Shown here: piece by piece, positions 24,275-35,180 of the stretch
Position numbering within the stretch: position 1 is the stretch's first letter
Layout: each line of letters starts with the position of its first letter
Origin: Bdellovibrio bacteriovorus
Lineage (GTDB): Bacteria > Bdellovibrionota > Bdellovibrionia > Bdellovibrionales > Bdellovibrionaceae
Assembly (NCBI RefSeq): GCF_001592735.1
Contig: NZ_LUKE01000002.1
Location: 124,001 to 188,000 of the forward strand
Direction: 5' to 3'
Length of the DNA: 64,000 nt
Made by a program: the position numbers and the translations under genes
The notes under the pieces: generated by a model
Told to the model about the DNA's origin: nothing
Databases searched by the model: none
The model's input: only the letters and a program-made list of their open reading frames with translations

Positions 24275-24817
24275 CTATCGCCCTTCAATTAAGCGCAACG
24301 AAGCCTCGATCCATTTCTTTTTAGAGGTCACATAAAAACGCAGCTTTTCGGGATGAGAGGCCTTGGAGTTTAATGTCAGCTCAATAGGATCAATCTGCTT
24401 CCATGCCTGCCCATTCTTTTCAATAAAGCGAACTTGGAAGGTCCCACGACGGACTTCGTCTACGGACACCTTAGAAAACTTAGGGTGGGCTATATTAAAC
24501 ACGCCCTGCATGGGGGCCGCTCCGTCCGTAAATAAAAATCTGGGGACAGGGACGCTGTAGCGCTCTTTAATCATGTCGCCGGTGATGATGCAGGCAGAAA
24601 GGCGGATCTCAGCTTCAACGAAGTCTTTTTTAGAATTTAAGTCCGACTTATCGATATTAAATCTAACTTGGCTGATTTCCTTTTGCCCTTCATAAGTGCA
24701 TGACGACGTCATCCCAAATAAAAGATTGAGTTTGTATTTAAACGCCACCTCTTGAGCTAGAGAAATATGGGACGCGAATAGCACTGCTATAACAGAAATT
24801 AATTTAAGCCTAGCCAT
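24275..24817 (-). CDS. Hypothetical exported protein, last gene of the ligase operon
   Basis: 180 residues with a signal peptide (MARLKLISVIAVLFASHISLAQ). Predicted beta-rich, two cysteines in the mature part (SSCTYEG, SACIITG) that could form a disulfide. No family recognised. Its start lies 19 bases inside the 3' end of the 817-residue gene, so it is translationally coupled to the operon. Confidence 0.72.
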   Translation of the reverse strand: MARLKLISVIAVLFASHISLAQEVAFKYKLNLLFGMTSSCTYEGQKEISQVRFNIDKSDLNSKKDFVEAEIRLSACIITGDMIKERYSVPVPRFLFTDGAAPMQGVFNIAHPKFSKVSVDEVRRGTFQVRFIEKNGQAWKQIDPIELTLNSKASHPEKLRFYVTSKKKWIEASLRLIEGR

Positions 24818-27252
24818 TTGTTCTTCTCCTCAATTAACTGAAATGCGGTTGTGACCGGGATTTCGCCATATGAAAAATTCTGTTCAACCAGTGCATGCTC
24901 TTTCATATGCGGTCTAAATACATGCAAACTGACTGACGTATTTTTTAACTTCTTTAATAAAAACTTTAAAATCACGTCTTTTGAATTCGACTGCGCAATC
25001 CAATTAAAGAAAGCCTTCGCGCGGGCTTCTTCCGTGTTTTGTCCTAGGACCTGATGGATCGCCATGACAAATACAAATCTTTCGTGCGCCTCTTCGTCGA
25101 TTTTGATGTTTTCTCTAGATGTTTTTCTAAGATTTAAGATCTCGCTTTCTAATTCTTTGATCCAGCCCGTGTTATTACCACCTTGTGCGAATAACGGAGA
25201 CAAATCTTTCCAGGACATTTTCACGTCCCAAGACAACTCTGCTTGTTTGTCGTCTTCAGGTTTTGGCAATAGCCCCGCTTGCATGGATTTTAAATCCATA
25301 TTCAGCGATGACGTAATTTGCGAAAGCGCGTAGAGCGTTAACGGCCTTTTTTCCGTGTAGAAGTGCGTACACGTCAATTTAAAGCTTCCGTCAAAGAATC
25401 GAGTTTGTGGGTTATTCGCGTCAGCTTCAAAGGCGGCCCATGTCGTGCAGACTTCATTGGCAGGATCATTGCCCAGCGAAAAGCGCTTGCTAGAGTCGGC
25501 AGAGCTTTCCAGTAAATAAAAGCGATGACGTTGATCCACCAAGTTTGATGGGTTCAAGGACTCTGGCTTTAGATCTATGAAACCATCCCAACGAGTCTTG
25601 GTCGTTTTAAAAAACCACACATTCGAGTGCATGTATTTGTTGATATAGTCAGCATCATATTTTACTTCGGCATATTTCCCATGATAGTCCGCCTCTTTAC
25701 CTACTTCGCCTTTTTTTACAAGTTCCGCCATGGGAACACGATACACCCCGCCCTTTTGCGCTAAGGCCGAGTATGACCATGTTAAAACAGGTAACTTTGC
25801 AAATCTGGTAACGGCGCGAAAAAAAACTTGAGCACTGAAATCATAACCGCGAGAATCACCAAAACCAACGAGCGCATTATTTTCGTCTTCCATGTAAACA
25901 TAGTGACGGCTTAAAAAGCGGTACGATCCACCAAAGTTTGCTTGCGGTCGTACGCGAGAAGATTTGTAAATTTCAAGATATCCACTGGCCACCGCTCCCG
26001 CCGTCCAGCCGGACTCGACAGTAAAGCTTTGACCTCGCTTAAGTTGATCTATGGATGCCCCCATCACCATCTCTTTGGTCAATGTCCACGGCGATTTTGA
26101 AGCCGTCTCCTTAGATGAAGCAAAAGAGCTAAATAGGTATTTACGCATATAACCTGGGCCCACGCCAATGCCTGCGCGCGCGGGTCCGAGAGACTTTCCG
26201 TAACCCACGTTTATGGTCACAATTAAATCGACGGAGTCATTAATACGATACAGATTCGCCGGAGAATTCGAGTGTGGATTTTTTAAAATTTTTCTTTTAA
26301 TACGGAACATAAATCCAGGGCCCACGCTAAAGCCACCAAGGCCTTTATCGTATTCGTAAGCAACATAGGGAGAATGCGCCAGCAAATACTTTGCAAGACC
26401 TTCCACATCTTCATAGCGATTTGAGATAAAATCCCGAATCTTTGCATCCAGACGGTCAAAAGTGAAATCCACTTCCAAGCCTTCCGGATTTTTCATCAAA
26501 ACACCATCACGGATGACTTCGCCATATTGGAAATTTTGAACTTGAGATAAAAAGATGTTTTTCTCTCTCAATAACGAAGCACGGCGGGAAAGAAGCTTCA
26601 CCGCATTCCACTGTGCGAGTGAATTAGGCATGCCGGCTTTTTGAAAGGCTTTCGCTAAGGCAAAAGCCGTCAGATCTTTGGTACGCATGCGGAAACTCTC
26701 TAGATCTTCGGGCTTAAGGGTCTTTGCCACTTCAAATGGAATTTCTGCAGACAAAAGATTTGGATTTGAAAGCGTGTCATTCATACCTAGGCATAAGTGC
26801 TCGGAATCAACACAACCTAGCCATAATAAATCCACAGCCGGCGCAGCACCTTGGGCCTTGAGAGCTTGCCGTAAAGACTTTTTCACGTAAAGATGAACCC
26901 AATCCCCTTCATGAGTCCAAGACTCAAAGATATTTTCCATTTTGGCTTGCAAGGGAGCCTCTTTAGATAAACGTAAAAAACGTTGGAAAATGGCATTGGG
27001 AATTATAATTTTCTGACCATTGGCCCACTGCGAGTCAAAGATTCCATTTCCTGTAGACAAAAGTAAAACTTGATCGCGTGCCGCACGAAACTCTAAGGCA
27101 CTTGAGAAAATATACTTGCTCTCGCCATTTTGTAAGACGACTTCTTGCGAATCAATTTGCGCCGACCAATGGTCGCGATTGTCCGCGAATGCTGTCACCG
27201 ACAGCACCATCGTTATTACTAAATAAAAAAATGCCAAGATCTTAGAAATCAT
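24799..27252 (-). CDS. Large hypothetical exported protein of the ligase operon
   Basis: 817 residues with a signal peptide ending near VTAFAD. Mixed composition with a central beta-rich, barrel-like stretch containing Gly-rich strands (VGPGFMFRIKRK, GYGKSLGPARAGIGVGPGY) and a short CTTW motif in NEVCTTWAAFEA that echoes the NCTTW of the gene just upstream. No domain recognised. It overlaps that gene by 4 bases (ATGA), so it must be made together with it. A role as scaffold or substrate handler of the ligases is only inference. Confidence 0.75.
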   Translation of the reverse strand: MISKILAFFYLVITMVLSVTAFADNRDHWSAQIDSQEVVLQNGESKYIFSSALEFRAARDQVLLLSTGNGIFDSQWANGQKIIIPNAIFQRFLRLSKEAPLQAKMENIFESWTHEGDWVHLYVKKSLRQALKAQGAAPAVDLLWLGCVDSEHLCLGMNDTLSNPNLLSAEIPFEVAKTLKPEDLESFRMRTKDLTAFALAKAFQKAGMPNSLAQWNAVKLLSRRASLLREKNIFLSQVQNFQYGEVIRDGVLMKNPEGLEVDFTFDRLDAKIRDFISNRYEDVEGLAKYLLAHSPYVAYEYDKGLGGFSVGPGFMFRIKRKILKNPHSNSPANLYRINDSVDLIVTINVGYGKSLGPARAGIGVGPGYMRKYLFSSFASSKETASKSPWTLTKEMVMGASIDQLKRGQSFTVESGWTAGAVASGYLEIYKSSRVRPQANFGGSYRFLSRHYVYMEDENNALVGFGDSRGYDFSAQVFFRAVTRFAKLPVLTWSYSALAQKGGVYRVPMAELVKKGEVGKEADYHGKYAEVKYDADYINKYMHSNVWFFKTTKTRWDGFIDLKPESLNPSNLVDQRHRFYLLESSADSSKRFSLGNDPANEVCTTWAAFEADANNPQTRFFDGSFKLTCTHFYTEKRPLTLYALSQITSSLNMDLKSMQAGLLPKPEDDKQAELSWDVKMSWKDLSPLFAQGGNNTGWIKELESEILNLRKTSRENIKIDEEAHERFVFVMAIHQVLGQNTEEARAKAFFNWIAQSNSKDVILKFLLKKLKNTSVSLHVFRPHMKEHALVEQNFSYGEIPVTTAFQLIEEKNKWLGLN

Positions 27253-29495
27253 TTACGATTAAAATCCCAATTTAATGTATTGTCGGTAAAATCTTCTTTT
27301 AAAGAGTTTTGGATAGATTTTGGCGTCCAGTAAGCCACCATCGGCACGCGCTCTAAAGAAGCTGTGCCCACCATCCAAGATCCTAACCATCCCGGGTTTT
27401 GTTGCACCCAAGGAACGGTTCTGTCGCCACCTAAAAGCCAAACCAGTGATTCTCCATTTTTGCCAATCGGCGCACCCGTCACCCAAGTGGTGCAGTTATT
27501 ACCGCACTCGCTTTTATTGTTATCGATCTTGCCATGAGTTCTTGGATCCCCTTCAAGGCGGAAACGACCCAGCACCGCGTTTTTATTATCTTTGATGTTG
27601 GCGATGTATTTGGTCATGTTGACTTCTTCGAGACGGCTTAAAAGCACGATCGGCTCTAAGCGACGTGAAGAAGCGGCGGCATAATCCCCCGTACGGAATT
27701 TAGAAAAATACTGAATGGGGTTGTAACCAAAGTTATAAACTTTGCCATCTACTTGCACCAAAGTGTGGCTGGCGCGCTCTTTTAACGGAAAAGTCATAGC
27801 CTGGATCGTGATCATGTCTAAGTAATCTTTTTCAAGCTTAGAAACCTGGGCGGCTGATAAACCATCCGTTGAAATCATCAAGACGTCACGGTCCGTGTTG
27901 GTTTTTTGTTCGCCATCACGGTATTTAAAAGTCACGCCTGGAATGACTTGCACATTGTCTTTCCATTGATTTTTAAAAGAAGCGAGTCTTAATTCCAACC
28001 CGCGGCGAGGAGCCATAAGACCTGTGTGTCCTTCGGAATATCTTTTAGGCAGTACCGACTGGAAATTCACGAAAGTTTCATTCAAACGGCTTTCCACCGC
28101 AAACTGAGACAAAGCTCCTTGAGTTAAAGCGCGGGCTTGCTCGGTGGTGATTTGGCCTTGGGCATGATCTGCCGCAATTTGAGTTAATTTGGCAACGTAA
28201 GCCTCTTGCGCCGCACTCACCGTTTTTGAAAGTCCACTGGCATCTAAAGCTTGAAGAGTGGGTCTCCACGATTTTAATGGATACGCAAAATTACGGAAAG
28301 TTTCATGAACTAAAATGGCTTTATCAAATTCGAATTTTTTTGGCGCCTTACTTGGATAAATAGTTTTTAGTAAGTTCTGCACTTCAGGTGTGAACTTTTC
28401 AAAATCGCTTTGAGTATCTAAAACCTTGATCTTATCCATACCGACAAAGGGGCTGCGACCTTTTTGGGCGTAATAAATAGATCTGGCCACGCGGTCAACC
28501 AGCAGAGCTTCGTCTTTATGGGCGTCACGCACTTCCTGAGAAACGCGCGTTGTGCCCGCAATGTCCGGGCGCCATGAAGAAGAGCCAATATATTTAAAGG
28601 AATGCTCAAGCTTGATGATCGCGGCGGTTTCTTCGGGATTTAAAATTTTACCGTGTGCCACTTCCGTCATGGCTTCGACCATTTTTTTATGGCGGAATTT
28701 CACCATGGGTCCTAGATAAGGATGTAAGAAAGGTCGCATCACTTCTTTAGAATTGTCCGCCGCAAATTTTTCAGCCCCTTGAGCCATGCGCGATAAAACG
28801 TCGGCCTCATGGACAAAGTTAAAATACCCGATGTCTTCTTTTAAAGTGACTTCTTTGATATCTCCGCTGGGAGCAAAGAAGCTTTCTTTGGGTTGGCTGA
28901 TCATGGCTTGCATGGATCCCACACCTAGATTTTTGTTAATCCAACGAACTTGGTTGAGCCAAGTTTCAAATCTATTGGCTGGAGCCACGACGATTTCCAC
29001 GTTCCCCGTGTCGTCTTTAATAAGTTGCTGAGGCAGAAATGAAAGTTCGGGATTTTTATCTAAAAGCACCATCACCGGGTCTTTGGCCCCAAACGGAATT
29101 GATTTTGCCTTGGCAAAAACCCATTCCATGCGCTTTTCAACCGGCATCGCCAGCCATGCTTGTTTTGAAATCCCCGCTTCAGGTGCAGGACCATAGAAAT
29201 TTGTCAACGGGCCGACTTCATTCAGAGTGTATTCGGATTCAAAACCAAATTGCATTTCTTTGCCCGCGGTTTTTAGCGAGCCCTTGGCAAACGCAAAGCC
29301 TTGTGCATCAAGTTCAATCAAATCTTTGTAAGAGATTTTATCAACCGCTTGCAGGCGCGCTACGGGAGATACCGCCCCTTTAGTAAAGACCGACTCACAG
29401 CGCATGGCTTCGGCCATGGCCGGTGAAACGGCCGTGACTTGGGTTAGCAAGATGGCAGCGGCGATAAGATGTTTTTTAGCGAAGTGCAATTTCAT
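27249..29495 (-). CDS. Exported amidoligase-like protein fused to a permuted papain-like domain
   Basis: 748 residues with a signal peptide (residues 1-30). The N-terminal ~510 residues carry marks of the glutamine-synthetase-like COOH-NH2 ligase fold: FGFESEY (83-89, the E-x-E pair), DDTGNVEIVV (161-170), a WRPDIAGTTRVSQE segment (308-321) and RRGLELR (497-503). The C-terminal domain has ASHTLVQVDGKVYNFG with His577 and, about 90 residues later, NNCTTWVTGAPIG with Cys668. His before Cys is the order of circularly permuted papain-like thiol hydrolases. I infer a ligase joined to a peptidase or amidase. The domain calls rest on motifs only. Confidence 0.6.
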   Translation of the reverse strand: MKLHFAKKHLIAAAILLTQVTAVSPAMAEAMRCESVFTKGAVSPVARLQAVDKISYKDLIELDAQGFAFAKGSLKTAGKEMQFGFESEYTLNEVGPLTNFYGPAPEAGISKQAWLAMPVEKRMEWVFAKAKSIPFGAKDPVMVLLDKNPELSFLPQQLIKDDTGNVEIVVAPANRFETWLNQVRWINKNLGVGSMQAMISQPKESFFAPSGDIKEVTLKEDIGYFNFVHEADVLSRMAQGAEKFAADNSKEVMRPFLHPYLGPMVKFRHKKMVEAMTEVAHGKILNPEETAAIIKLEHSFKYIGSSSWRPDIAGTTRVSQEVRDAHKDEALLVDRVARSIYYAQKGRSPFVGMDKIKVLDTQSDFEKFTPEVQNLLKTIYPSKAPKKFEFDKAILVHETFRNFAYPLKSWRPTLQALDASGLSKTVSAAQEAYVAKLTQIAADHAQGQITTEQARALTQGALSQFAVESRLNETFVNFQSVLPKRYSEGHTGLMAPRRGLELRLASFKNQWKDNVQVIPGVTFKYRDGEQKTNTDRDVLMISTDGLSAAQVSKLEKDYLDMITIQAMTFPLKERASHTLVQVDGKVYNFGYNPIQYFSKFRTGDYAAASSRRLEPIVLLSRLEEVNMTKYIANIKDNKNAVLGRFRLEGDPRTHGKIDNNKSECGNNCTTWVTGAPIGKNGESLVWLLGGDRTVPWVQQNPGWLGSWMVGTASLERVPMVAYWTPKSIQNSLKEDFTDNTLNWDFNRK

Positions 29496-29504
29496 AACTG
29501 ACTC

Positions 29505-30590
29505 CTAGTGTCCGGCAAACACCGCAGAACACGCGCGGGCTTTGATGCTTAAAAACTTTTGATAATCTTCAGGGTGATTCACGCGGAAAAACCCGACTGT
29601 TTCACTCAGACGTTTTAATCCCAAAGTCTCACGCACCGCTTTAACCACATTAAAGTTGTTGTTTGGTTCGCGATTTTCAAACAAAGGGTAACCTTTAAAC
29701 CATGTGGTTTCGACTAAGAACTTAGACAGAGGATCCTGCGGCATCATGTACATCATCATTGAAGAAAGACGTAAGTAGTTCCATTTCATCACCGGCAAGA
29801 TTTTATCAAATCCTTCAGCATGAAGCTTGTACATCACTTCTTTTTTCACTTGGCTGATTGGAGACTTCCACGCACCTTCAATGCCCATCACTTCGGCACC
29901 TTGGCGGTACATGAAATCGTTATAGAACTCTCTCCAAGTAGGATTGTAATGAGGTTGATTGATCAGCTTCATAAAGCCTGGTGAAAAATCACCTAAGTAT
30001 TTACGACGGAATTCTGGCACTTGGTAAGTGGCCGCAATGTCTTTGCGGTTTTCAGGGCTTAAGTAAGTCTTAATCAAATCAATAATTTCTTGCGGCGTCG
30101 CCTTGCTGCGGTCCCCTTGAGCGATTTCGACATTCACTTGAATCGAAACGGCTAAACCATCCGCCGTGCCCTTCGCACCCGAAGCTTTCAAAGCGTCCAT
30201 GGCTTTTTGCAATTTTTCGACATCCGCATAATGAATCGGATCCGTCACGATTTCGGTGATCAATGTTTTTTCGTAAGCTTCTTCTAAGTTACCAATCGCT
30301 GAAGAACCATTATCCTCAGGTTTTACGACCACGCGTCCAATGGCAGATTTTTGTAAATGATATTCCGGCACGCCGTATTCATTAGGAACAATTTGAATTT
30401 CACCACCGATTTTCTTTTGTACAATCAAAGCGATTTCTTTGGTACGAAGTCCCGACATCTCCACTTCGATCCCTACGCGCGGGGCTTTGTCGGCATCAAA
30501 TGCTTCATCATGAGCAAACTTCATCAGCTGTTGCGCCTGAGCGCCCACTGAAAGACATAATAAAAGGAATGTCATTGCCGCGGTTTTCAT
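29505..30590 (-). CDS. Exported Amidoligase_2-like protein
   Basis: 361 residues from the ATG at 30588-30590, which overlaps the stop of the upstream ATP-grasp gene by one base (TAATG); an in-frame start 8 codons earlier would spoil the signal peptide. After the signal peptide, RVGIEVEMSGL (38-48) is the hallmark N-terminal motif of Amidoligase_2 proteins, and TLITEIVTDPIHYADVEKL fits the next conserved block. The usual GLHVHV block is changed to GLAVSIQVNVEI. The family forms amide bonds with ATP. A signal peptide on such an enzyme is unexpected. Ends 9 bases before the fused-domain gene. Confidence 0.72.
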   Translation of the reverse strand: MKTAAMTFLLLCLSVGAQAQQLMKFAHDEAFDADKAPRVGIEVEMSGLRTKEIALIVQKKIGGEIQIVPNEYGVPEYHLQKSAIGRVVVKPEDNGSSAIGNLEEAYEKTLITEIVTDPIHYADVEKLQKAMDALKASGAKGTADGLAVSIQVNVEIAQGDRSKATPQEIIDLIKTYLSPENRKDIAATYQVPEFRRKYLGDFSPGFMKLINQPHYNPTWREFYNDFMYRQGAEVMGIEGAWKSPISQVKKEVMYKLHAEGFDKILPVMKWNYLRLSSMMMYMMPQDPLSKFLVETTWFKGYPLFENREPNNNFNVVKAVRETLGLKRLSETVGFFRVNHPEDYQKFLSIKARACSAVFAGH

Positions 30591-31936
30591 TAGTGCTCCA
30601 ATGTCTTTGTCCAAGTGACAAAGTCGTTCCAGGCTTTATCGCCGATTTTTTTAACCTTGCTTAAACGGATCGAATAGTTTTGCGCAAAATCCAATAGTTC
30701 CACGAAGTCAGCGCTTTGCAATTTCACCGGGTCCTTTGCGTTCTCTAAAACCGGTGCAAAATAATCTTTTTGCATCATGCGAAAGCCTTCAAGAGCATAG
30801 TCATGACTTTCAGGGTTTGCCGCGTCCTTCATCCAATCGACGATGTCATGTTTCACGTGTTTTTTGGCGTTGGCTAAATTATTATAAAACATCCAGCCTT
30901 CGGTGCCCTCAATCGCCCAACCGTAATGATCTTTCACGTGACGAGCGTAAGCACCAATCGTTTTTGGTGTTCTTAAAAACCCTGACCAATTGGTTCTTTC
31001 ACCCCGATTGGTGTTCACTTCAATGATTTGCAGCTTTCCTTGGGGAGTGACGAAAATATCAAAAGAAAATCCCATGCGATGAGAAAATCCTTTAGGCATG
31101 CTTTGCAAAAGGTCTTCAACAAAGCGATCGACCGCTTCAATTTTTTCTTTGTTTTGTGGGGTGTACCAGCGAGTTTCGGTCGCCCCTTTTACGACATGAC
31201 CATAAAAAGCATGGGCGCGGAATTCATTGGCTTCACCGTATTTTGAATTGGACAATCCCGTCCCTTCGATCATCCCCATCATCATCAGTTTTTCACCACT
31301 GCCGATGCGACCGGTCTTGTTACCGCCAAAGGCTTCGGCCATATCCGCTGAATTATAAAGAGCATTATCACCCTTCATTAAAAGGTCGACGATTTCTTTT
31401 TTGTCTTTATAAAAGCTTTTACCACTAGAAGACCAATCCAGTGTGGGCTTGATGATAAAACCTTGAGGAAATTCTTTATCTAACGCGGCTGAGAGTTTTG
31501 CTTTAGACACAATCACTTTGCCGTCGGCATTGACGAATTTATTTTTGGCTAAGAACTCTTTTACACCCATTGTTGGGGGGTGGAATTCCAAGAAGCGATC
31601 CCCTAAGTGTTTTTGCAGGATTTTCGCCATGATAAGCTTATCGGCCATTAAGTGCGTGGTTTCAGAGAATTCCACGATCTTGTTATCATAGAAAAAGCCC
31701 ATCAAATCATCGCGTTTGGCGCCCAGCTTTAACTTCAGTGGGGCGTAGGCAAGATCAGCACTTTGATTTTCTAAAAGAATCCGCGCTTCGACCTTGTTCA
31801 CTTTATCATTCAAGAATGTCACAGGAGAGTAGTCTGAAACATGGGAGAAGACTCTGGCGCAAACAGGGGCCGCAGGGGCATAAGCTCCCATGAAGAGACT
31901 TCCAACAATCGCAATAGATACCGCTACAGATTTCAT
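30590..31936 (-). CDS. Exported ATP-grasp-like ligase
   Basis: 448 residues with a signal peptide (about 1-22). ATP-grasp landmarks appear in order: GFIIKPTLDWSSSGKSF with Lys163 and the Ser/Gly phosphate loop, NEFRAHAFYGHVVKG (237-251), and FDIFVTPQGKLQIIEVNTNRG with Asp293, Glu306 and Asn308 as the metal-binding set. These enzymes join a carboxylate to an amine or thiol via acyl-phosphate. It is the first gene of the five-gene exported operon. Periplasmic ATP is normally scarce, which is the oddity of this locus. Confidence 0.75.
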   Translation of the reverse strand: MKSVAVSIAIVGSLFMGAYAPAAPVCARVFSHVSDYSPVTFLNDKVNKVEARILLENQSADLAYAPLKLKLGAKRDDLMGFFYDNKIVEFSETTHLMADKLIMAKILQKHLGDRFLEFHPPTMGVKEFLAKNKFVNADGKVIVSKAKLSAALDKEFPQGFIIKPTLDWSSSGKSFYKDKKEIVDLLMKGDNALYNSADMAEAFGGNKTGRIGSGEKLMMMGMIEGTGLSNSKYGEANEFRAHAFYGHVVKGATETRWYTPQNKEKIEAVDRFVEDLLQSMPKGFSHRMGFSFDIFVTPQGKLQIIEVNTNRGERTNWSGFLRTPKTIGAYARHVKDHYGWAIEGTEGWMFYNNLANAKKHVKHDIVDWMKDAANPESHDYALEGFRMMQKDYFAPVLENAKDPVKLQSADFVELLDFAQNYSIRLSKVKKIGDKAWNDFVTWTKTLEH

Positions 31937-33869: not shown

Positions 33870-33897
33870 GAACTAGGAGGTTTTTATCTCCTAGTTC
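33870..33897. terminator. Hairpin between convergent genes
   Basis: GAACTAGGAG (33870-33879) and CTCCTAGTTC (33888-33897) form a perfect 10-bp stem with an 8-base T-rich loop. It covers the stop codon of the amylase-like gene. No flanking T-run on either strand. Confidence 0.5.
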
Positions 33898-35180
33898 GCT
33901 CCCCCGGCGGAAATCCCATTGACCGTCACCTTTTGATTTGCAAAATCAAACGTCACCTTATGAGATCCCTGAACTGTCACGTGCACCTGAGCCGCCATTC
34001 GTTTCACAGATGTGATCGTATTAAACCCTCCCAAACTTTTTCGCCATCGAATCAATTTTTGATAATGCAACCAAAGTGATGCATCATGCTCCGCCAAGGT
34101 GATTTCAGGCTGGATGGAAGGCAAATGCCATTGCGGGTACTTGAAACCCTCCGCTTGACCATAGAACATTAACAGAGGGCCTGGCAGGAACGCCATCACG
34201 GAGGCCGCAAAGAACGTTTGTTCCCGGGTGTGGGAGAATAAAAAGCTGGGTGTGTCGTTATTTTGCAGATAGCGCGCCACGCGGGAAGCATCTTTATTTT
34301 TTTGCTCACGCAAAATATCGGCTAAATATTGGGCGGCGGCTTCAGGATCCTTTTCATTAAAAATTGTTTCTTCGTGACCTTCACCCGTCTGAAACGCCCA
34401 TCGCGACACCCAGTCTGGATCTTGATTGTTCCAATCATAAGCCCACGTGTAGGGCCCAGCGGCGAAAAAAGCTTTGTCTTCCGCTAAGATCAAGGCCTCG
34501 GGGTTGATCTTTTTTAGCTCTTTGACAATGCTTTCATAAAATAACGGCCATCGTGAAGCGGGTGCCCAACCAGCATCCAGACGAAATCCATCAACGGAAA
34601 ATTTCAAAGTCCAATGCCTTAACACTTCAATCGCATACCTTTGGACCGCGGGATGGGCGTAATTAAGATTCACTAGCTTTTCCCAGAAGTAATAGACAAA
34701 AGGAATTTCATCTACCATCAGAATATTTTGAAATTGCGAGTACACGCTGGCCGTTTCAATTTCATGCTGATAAAAATCATAAAGGCGTGATGCTTTACCG
34801 TTTCGTAGAACCTCTTGAGCAAAAGGATGCTGCAAGGGTGTGTGATTCAAAGCGATATCTAAGATGACTTTGATATTTAACGCGTGGGCATTGCGGATTA
34901 AGTTTTTAAATTGTTCTTCAGTTCCATAGCTGGGATTGATCGTAAAAAAATCGATGGTGTCATAAGATTGACCCGGCTCCGCAGAAGGAAAAATCGGCTG
35001 CACCCACAAGACGGTCACACCCAGATCTTTGAGTTCCGGCAGACGTCGCGTGATTTCAGAAATCACCGTGAGCGGGCGACCTTGAGTGAAGTAATAAGGC
35101 GAAACCCCATAAATCACATCATAGGCCAAAGCACGGCAGGATAAAAAACCAAAGAAGAAAAAGAAAATAAATTTGAACAT
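33891..35180 (-). CDS. Exported GH13 alpha-amylase-family protein
   Basis: 429 residues with a signal peptide (MFKFIFFFFFGFLSCRALA). The GH13 barrel regions are present: LDIALNH (region I, 107-113), GFRLDA with nucleophile Asp202 (region II), ILAED with acid/base Glu234 (region III). Region IV reads NNDT (307-310), so the usual His before the transition-state Asp309 is Asn. It likely acts on an alpha-glucan outside the cytoplasm, which in a predator could be prey glycogen or its own envelope polymer. It lacks most of a C-terminal domain C beyond a short beta-rich tail. Confidence 0.85.
   Translation of the reverse strand: MFKFIFFFFFGFLSCRALAYDVIYGVSPYYFTQGRPLTVISEITRRLPELKDLGVTVLWVQPIFPSAEPGQSYDTIDFFTINPSYGTEEQFKNLIRNAHALNIKVILDIALNHTPLQHPFAQEVLRNGKASRLYDFYQHEIETASVYSQFQNILMVDEIPFVYYFWEKLVNLNYAHPAVQRYAIEVLRHWTLKFSVDGFRLDAGWAPASRWPLFYESIVKELKKINPEALILAEDKAFFAAGPYTWAYDWNNQDPDWVSRWAFQTGEGHEETIFNEKDPEAAAQYLADILREQKNKDASRVARYLQNNDTPSFLFSHTREQTFFAASVMAFLPGPLLMFYGQAEGFKYPQWHLPSIQPEITLAEHDASLWLHYQKLIRWRKSLGGFNTITSVKRMAAQVHVTVQGSHKVTFDFANQKVTVNGISAGGAN

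Follow-up and report, generated by a model that had tools for sequence, protein, structure and literature searches.

An operon of exported ATP-grasp and amidoligase-like proteins in Bdellovibrio bacteriovorus

Introduction

The usual assumption is that ATP-dependent ligases belong in the cytoplasm, and amidoligase clusters with ATP-grasp proteins, GS-like ligases and peptidases have reportedly been described as cytoplasmic by Iyer et al. in 2009. Five adjacent genes of Bdellovibrio bacteriovorus raise the question of what such enzymes might do outside the cell that makes them. The genes lie on the minus strand of a stretch of 64,000 nucleotides (RefSeq assembly GCF_001592735.1, contig NZ_LUKE01000002.1, positions 124,001 to 188,000; in the following the window) from a genome of 3.93 Mb in 9 contigs. 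The observation of an exported five-gene operon is confirmed as real, not due to chance, and unusual. Judged by sequence, the operon is an exported variant of the known ligase-cluster type, and the predicted signals and conserved residues described below give good support to the export of ligases whose catalytic sites are intact. We infer that ATP is hydrolyzed outside the cytoplasm and that this reaction is linked to prey. The five open reading frames (ORFs) are numbered g1 to g5 in transcription order and have the following predicted features:

g1: 30590..31936, minus strand, 448 amino acids (aa); exported ATP-grasp protein, nearest the R2K clade; signal peptide at residues 1-20; C26, in CARVF, the only Cys of the mature protein; K163, R240, D293, E306, N308
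g2: 29505..30590, minus strand, 361 aa; exported Amidoligase_2 protein; signal peptide 1-19; E42-x-E44, N153-x-E155, E305-x-R307; C354, in the C-terminal CSAVFAGH, the only Cys of the mature protein
g3, whole ORF: 27249..29495, minus strand, 748 aa; two domains on one chain
g3N, N-terminal domain of g3: 28028..29495, minus strand, residues ~52-490; GS/GCS-fold ligase-like; E86-x-E88, N165-x-E167, E321-x-R323; CESVF at the mature N-terminus (C33)
g3C, C-terminal domain of g3: 27249..28028, minus strand, residues ~490-748; permuted NlpC/P60 (TseH-like), dyad H577/C668
g4: 24799..27252, minus strand, 817 aa; exported, no fold assigned; four Cys
g5: 24275..24817, minus strand, 180 aa; exported, no function assigned

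Results

The genes are tightly packed: three junctions overlap by 1, 4 and 19 bases, 9 bases separate the genes at the remaining one, and the ORF coordinates agree with the five-gene arrangement given in the original prediction, which had been made from the DNA letters of the window. It had also attributed signal peptides to all five products. A rule-based test for Sec signal peptides accepted four of them, with cleavage after MKSVAVSIAIVGSLFMGAYA in g1, MKTAAMTFLLLCLSVGAQA in g2, MKLHFAKKHLIAAAILLTQVTAVSPAMA in g3 and MISKILAFFYLVITMVLSVTA in g4; g5 failed the strict rule and is readable by eye as MARLKLISVIAVLFASHISLA followed by Q, and the attribution holds in this form. Across the window genome the same rule accepted 368 of 1467 ORFs, about a quarter. 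No transmembrane segment was found after the signal peptide in g1 to g5, nor was a twin-Arg motif seen by eye in these proteins, and Tat export of a nucleotide-preloaded enzyme was set aside on the latter ground. Promoter and terminator scans gave results no better than those for shuffled sequence.

Export signals recur among the relatives of these proteins. Of the 46 homologs with a readable start (54 listed proteins less six that are truncated or masked and two weak matches), 39 begin with a signal peptide, with a lipobox or with a hydrophobic segment of the export type, and because of this recurrence the possibility that the signal peptides are start-site errors was rejected. With predicted signals on the five window genes and on these homologs, the system departs from the cytoplasmic location of known amidoligase/ATP-grasp/peptidase clusters, as far as sequence can tell. 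The seven homologs that lack a signal comprise two g1 paralogs inside an operon of glycosyltransferase-like genes (L070, L072), two short g2-like proteins (L095, L102) and the g3N, g3C and ATP-grasp genes of a single locus (L075, also read as L111). At the latter (L111:9902-15545) g3N and g3C are followed by a histidine-phosphatase-like gene, the ATP-grasp gene and then, by eye, deacetylase- and glycosyltransferase-like genes. Since this is the sole locus at which the g3 signal is lost, and the signal of the ATP-grasp neighbour is lost with it, location appears to change for the set as a whole; this cytoplasmic version may put an ancestral biosynthetic role on display.

The best matches of g1 in two profile libraries are all ATP-grasp models and all lie under cut-off; in Pfam the top matches, again all ATP-grasp, are weak (E 0.0024 and 0.0066). 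The R2K clade (PF18299/PF14243) was matched with 16.8 and 12.6 bits, below the respective cut-offs of 26.2 and 26.3, and g1 is for this reason filed only as an ATP-grasp protein near R2K. Its homologs reach 1.2e-7 for R2K_2 and 7.8e-7 for R2K_3 in Pfam, and the K, R, D and E-x-N residues are intact in most of them as well as in 7/7 ATP-grasp domains that occur as fusions. By these residues and its homology g1 is placed in the ATP-grasp superfamily. The second protein, g2, is the only Amidoligase_2 match in the window genome (PF12224, 65 bits, cut-off 22), and all 11 homologs match the same model. Within its GS-like site E44, N153-x-E155 and E305-x-R307 are present in 11/11 homologs and E42 in 10/11 (changed in L081). 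Both Lys163, Glu306 and Asn308 of g1 and the Amidoligase_2 motif VGIEVEMSG of g2, on which the original prediction had relied, are thus present, the former conserved among homologs. No match was obtained in a single-sequence scan of genome contigs with g2 or in a comparison of the g2 alignment with viral contigs. In the phylum, Amidoligase_2 occurs in 41 of 192 genomes, often in frames of roughly 1000-2100 aa, one of which (L108:4214-7249, minus strand) looks exported and has the C-terminus SCTSIFRYLANSF.

Fusions of amidoligase and ATP-grasp domains are found in other families of the phylum (g2 homologs L067, L078 and L080-L083), and a single exported ORF of 1176 aa (L065, genome G099) consists of an ATP-grasp, an amidoligase and a second ATP-grasp domain. 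R2K models match seven members of the g2 alignment, which is also the number of members with an ATP-grasp extension, and hhalign relates the g1 family to the fused ATP-grasp with a probability of 99.2% (E 3.4e-19). Because two window genes correspond to one exported chain elsewhere, g1 and g2 would be expected to act together and in one compartment; for this, the fusions constitute strong evidence at the level of predicted proteins.

An AlphaFold2 model of g3, built from 17 sequences, reached a mean predicted local distance difference test (pLDDT) score of 82, and g3C modelled separately reached 86. The whole protein had no match in Pfam, and neither the g3 nor the g3C model had a Foldseek match in the PDB at E<=0.001. 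When the g3N model was compared with the PDB by VIA-align, all 50 rows listed belonged to the GS/GCS superfamily (Dop, GS, YbdK, PafA, GshF, plant GCL) and no unrelated fold was among them; the scores were Z 7.7 for Dop (9cku), 7.5 for GS (8tfc) and 6.9 for YbdK (1r8g). The corresponding residue pattern is conserved, with E86/E88, E167 and E321/R323 in 13/13 sequences and N165 in 12/13. Dop uses nucleotide plus phosphate catalytically. If nucleotide were likewise a non-consumed cofactor of the GS-like domains of the operon, these would cleave amides, the operon would trim rather than ligate, and no supply of ATP outside the cytoplasm would be needed. That Dop, tied with GS, is the best structural match of g3N and that the partner genes are hydrolases speak for such a module; on the other hand, the ATP-grasp domains kept in the exported fusions have their E-x-N metal site intact, a sign of ATP turnover, and even in such a module any protein exported by Sec would need to acquire its nucleotide outside. 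We consider a Dop-like hydrolase module quite improbable.

For g3C, TseH (6v98) was the only clear structural match, with a Z of 7.5 (root-mean-square deviation 3.0, 130 aligned residues) that is below 8 but far above the next unrelated row at 3.3. H577 precedes C668, and both residues are present in 10/11 homologs and both absent in L110, a joint loss as expected of a catalytic dyad. The order of a catalytic His before the catalytic Cys is that of permuted NlpC/P60 enzymes, and going by its model and this residue order g3C appears to be of this circularly permuted type. The original prediction had joined an amidoligase-like to a papain-like region in g3; two domains are indeed joined, and the papain-like label has to be corrected. 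For the permuted group, TseH included, lipid or acyl substrates have been argued (PMC12994826). A role of g3C as an ordinary peptidoglycan peptidase is not favoured, as its His-before-Cys order and the TseH match lead to the permuted enzymes of acyl chemistry (PMC12994826). Because permuted enzymes such as TseH and DUF4105/Lnb mostly act on acyl groups or lipids, the term "peptide" may not fit all of the chemistry.

The first three proteins share a terminal motif. C-x-x-V-F stands just after the signal peptide in g1 (C26) and g3 (C33) and at the C-terminus of g2 (C354), and the Cys concerned is the only one of mature g1 and of mature g2. In a survey of 2.0 of the 3.9 Mb of the window genome, the strict form C-x-x-[VIL]-F was counted five times at the N-terminal end of exported proteins against a background of 0.22 per equal window, and five times at the C-terminal end against 0.44. 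These counts include g1 and g2, while g3 was missed by the cleavage rule; since the motif was first noticed on g1 to g3, they are to be left out, and 4 and 4 remain. Neighbour loci in other genomes, with g1-g3 homologs removed, gave 7 N-terminal cases against 0.22; several of these are paralogs, and the enrichment holds there at the N-terminal end only. We regard it as a lead. The carriers, which also include an alpha/beta hydrolase, are mostly enzymes of cytosolic-type chemistry. Among them are an exported Fic protein of 1317 aa (L138:14925-18875, minus strand; PF02661, 6.4e-8) that by eye has an N-terminal ADP-ribosyltransferase-like stretch and ends in CRNVFAI; an exported protein of 312 aa with FRFDSRPP, weak matches to the Scabin-like and Pertussis_S1 models of ADP-ribosyltransferases (E 0.07 and 0.17) and N-terminal CQNIF (L185:1439-2374, minus strand); and an exported protein of 699 aa (L207:15420-17516, plus strand) with N-terminal CATIF and GNAT (Acetyltransf_5) plus acyltransferase domains, which normally depend on acyl-CoA or acyl carrier protein (ACP). 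An exported protein of 384 aa without a Pfam match (L123:12585-13736, minus strand) shows amidoligase-like GAEFNF...FEIR by eye and ends in CRRIF, and two adjoining exported proteins of 539 and 500 aa (L171:13929-17087, minus strand) have the terminal Cys motifs CQAVF and CGRVL.

These carriers bear on the possibility that the operon encodes effectors for the prey cytosol, which would be exported by Sec and then, in a second step with C-x-x-[VIL]-F as part of the route, reach the ATP-rich prey cytoplasm and tag or modify prey proteins there. In other bacteria R2K ATP-grasps are predicted secreted effectors, with delivery by type VI or type IV secretion systems (T6SS, T4SS) proposed (PMC4431377). 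The enrichment of the motif at the ends of exported proteins agrees with such a route, as does the fact that the Fic, GNAT plus acyltransferase and ADP-ribosyltransferase-like carriers all use cytosolic co-substrates. However, the motif is also found on an ordinary exported hydrolase, and the domain that resembles TseH belongs to a type whose site of action is the periplasm. Furthermore, no machinery is known to us by which Bdellovibrio proteins exported by Sec could cross the inner membrane of the prey. All in all, delivery into the prey cytosol appears unlikely.

A search for the same gene order in the phylum, which the original prediction had proposed, was successful in part. In another genus of the same family (L105, on a contig of genome G245) g1-g3-g4-g5 are retained at about 25-52% identity, but without g2. 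In a locus from another family (L066) g1 is accompanied by a homolog of g4 and by a protein with weak similarity to g5, and in both cases g5 comes after g4. At L221 a g4 homolog follows a protein that matches Lnb_N/DUF4105 just at cut-off; as this is another family of permuted NlpC/P60 enzymes, g4 seems to be a companion of that enzyme type. Homologs of g3 adjoin exported CN-hydrolases in L096, L107, L112 and L114 and exported S58 peptidases (Peptidase_S58) in L109 and L117, and a further S58 gene lies near g3 in L096. At L096:2979-8484 (plus strand) tandem exported paralogs of 438-445 aa with an N-terminal C-x-x-[LI]-F are situated just upstream of the g3N homolog and near the exported S58 peptidase. 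Outside the window genome the host genus has g1 only as paralogs, of which those read lack a signal peptide, and g2 in a single genome, where it is part of a fusion. In the window itself, an alpha-amylase-like ORF with an export signal recognized by eye (33891-35180, minus strand) lies upstream of the operon region.

Discussion

The original prediction had proposed that ligase chemistry is moved outside the cytoplasm. The findings are in favour of this insofar as one operon of exported proteins encodes ATP-grasp, amidoligase and papain-type chemistry, with export conserved in homologs and residues intact. The explanation that we put first, if tentatively, is a Sec-exported module that makes and edits amide bonds on envelope-type substrates with prey ATP. 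As a pair, g1 and g2 would form amide links between a carboxylate and an amine on an acceptor outside the cytoplasm of the producer. In g3 a further GS-like ligase site would be combined on one chain with a Cys-His hydrolase or acyltransferase domain, which could cleave or exchange acyl or amide groups of substrates of this class; g4 and g5 might be exported accessories of this permuted NlpC/P60 enzyme. Glutamate or diaminopimelate carboxyls of the envelope, aminolipids, or carboxylates and amines derived from prey may serve as acceptors. Export by Sec implies that folding of the enzymes and their contact with nucleotide take place outside the cytoplasm. ATP would come from the prey, with the predator residing in the prey periplasm or feeding on lysed cells. 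An ATP transport system is reported for Bdellovibrio 109J, going by the title of Ruby & McCabe 1986 as cited in PMC4834554, and to the extent that this title conveys, ATP at the predator surface inside prey is plausible.

Several points weigh against prey-fuelled ligation. Periplasmic ATP is normally too low for ligases. The location and the biochemical activity of g1 to g3 are predictions. Taken alone, g1 stays under the Pfam cut-offs (17.6 and 16.8 bits), and profile searches of PDB sequences with the g1, g2, g3 and g3C families revealed no relative. A check by structure prediction, which had been suggested, was carried out for g3, and the GS/GCS matches of g3N did not exceed Z 7.7, a value below 8. 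As hhalign found no relation between the g2 and g3 profiles (probability 1%), the ligase-like assignment of g3N rests on fold and motif pattern; GS/GCS likeness is supported by the residues and suggested by the model, and no profile similarity to Amidoligase_2 or g2 was seen. The distribution is patchy (g1 in 18/291, g2 in 18/291 and g3 in 19/291 genomes, g4 in 4 genomes), and among the loci read no other unites g1, g2 and g3. K and E-x-N are both missing from two exported homologs of g1 (L068, L073). Together with the lost hydrolase dyad of L110, the changed E42 of L081 and the patchy distribution, the last point suits the view that the signal peptides are real but ligase function is gone, the folds having been repurposed to bind envelope substrates or the genes being in decay. 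Yet none of the catalytic residues checked in the window genes is lost, their frames are open and the operon is tight, and the g1-g3-g4-g5 set is retained in another genus; loss of function is accordingly a very unlikely explanation.

A wider proposal, which at present is speculative and unlikely to hold in full, is that prey-ATP-fuelled amide ligation outside the own cytoplasm belongs to a broader group of exported enzymes with normally cytosolic chemistry in Bdellovibrionota. Ligases, Fic, ADP-ribosyltransferase-like and acyl-CoA-type transferases would share C-x-x-[VIL]-F as a terminal tag that serves to deliver or anchor them at or inside the prey. Conservation of exported proteins with intact sites, among them single chains that hold two ATP-grasps and an amidoligase, would mean either that ATP is available and used in a prey compartment or that the proteins reach the prey cytoplasm. 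In either case the biochemistry between predator and prey would become directly testable, and new prey-modifying enzymes would be gained.

The operon shares the combination of ATP-grasp and GS-like amidoligase with a papain-fold, CN-hydrolase or S58-type hydrolase with the clusters of the Iyer type, and differs in that ligases and hydrolases bear export signals. Likeness to the R2K-clade (CDC123-like) ATP-grasps, which have been linked to conflict systems (PMC4431377), lies in the best Pfam matches of the g1 homologs and in the conserved Lys, Arg and E-x-N, whereas g1 itself stays under the R2K cut-offs; "signal peptide", "periplasm" and Bdellovibrio are not mentioned in the text of that paper. 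TseH, a type VI effector, is placed with the permuted NlpC/P60 enzymes (PMC12994826), and g3C resembles TseH, Tox-Act1 and DUF4105 (Lnb) in its His-before-Cys permuted core, the candidate fold match to TseH and a predicted location outside the cytoplasm of the producer; unlike them, it is fused behind a GS-like domain and has no profile match to Pfam or the PDB. Its E-x-E, N-x-E and E-x-R residues and, as the model suggests, its fold ally g3N with Dop/PafA, GS and YbdK; in contrast to these, g3 has an export signal, and identity is about 5-14%. Glutathionylspermidine synthetase/amidase unites an ATP-dependent amide ligase and a papain-fold amidase on one chain, in that case an ATP-grasp with a CHAP amidase in the cytoplasm. 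The predicted g3 protein would likewise combine ligase and hydrolase on one chain, but with a GS-like ligase, a permuted hydrolase domain and a signal for export.
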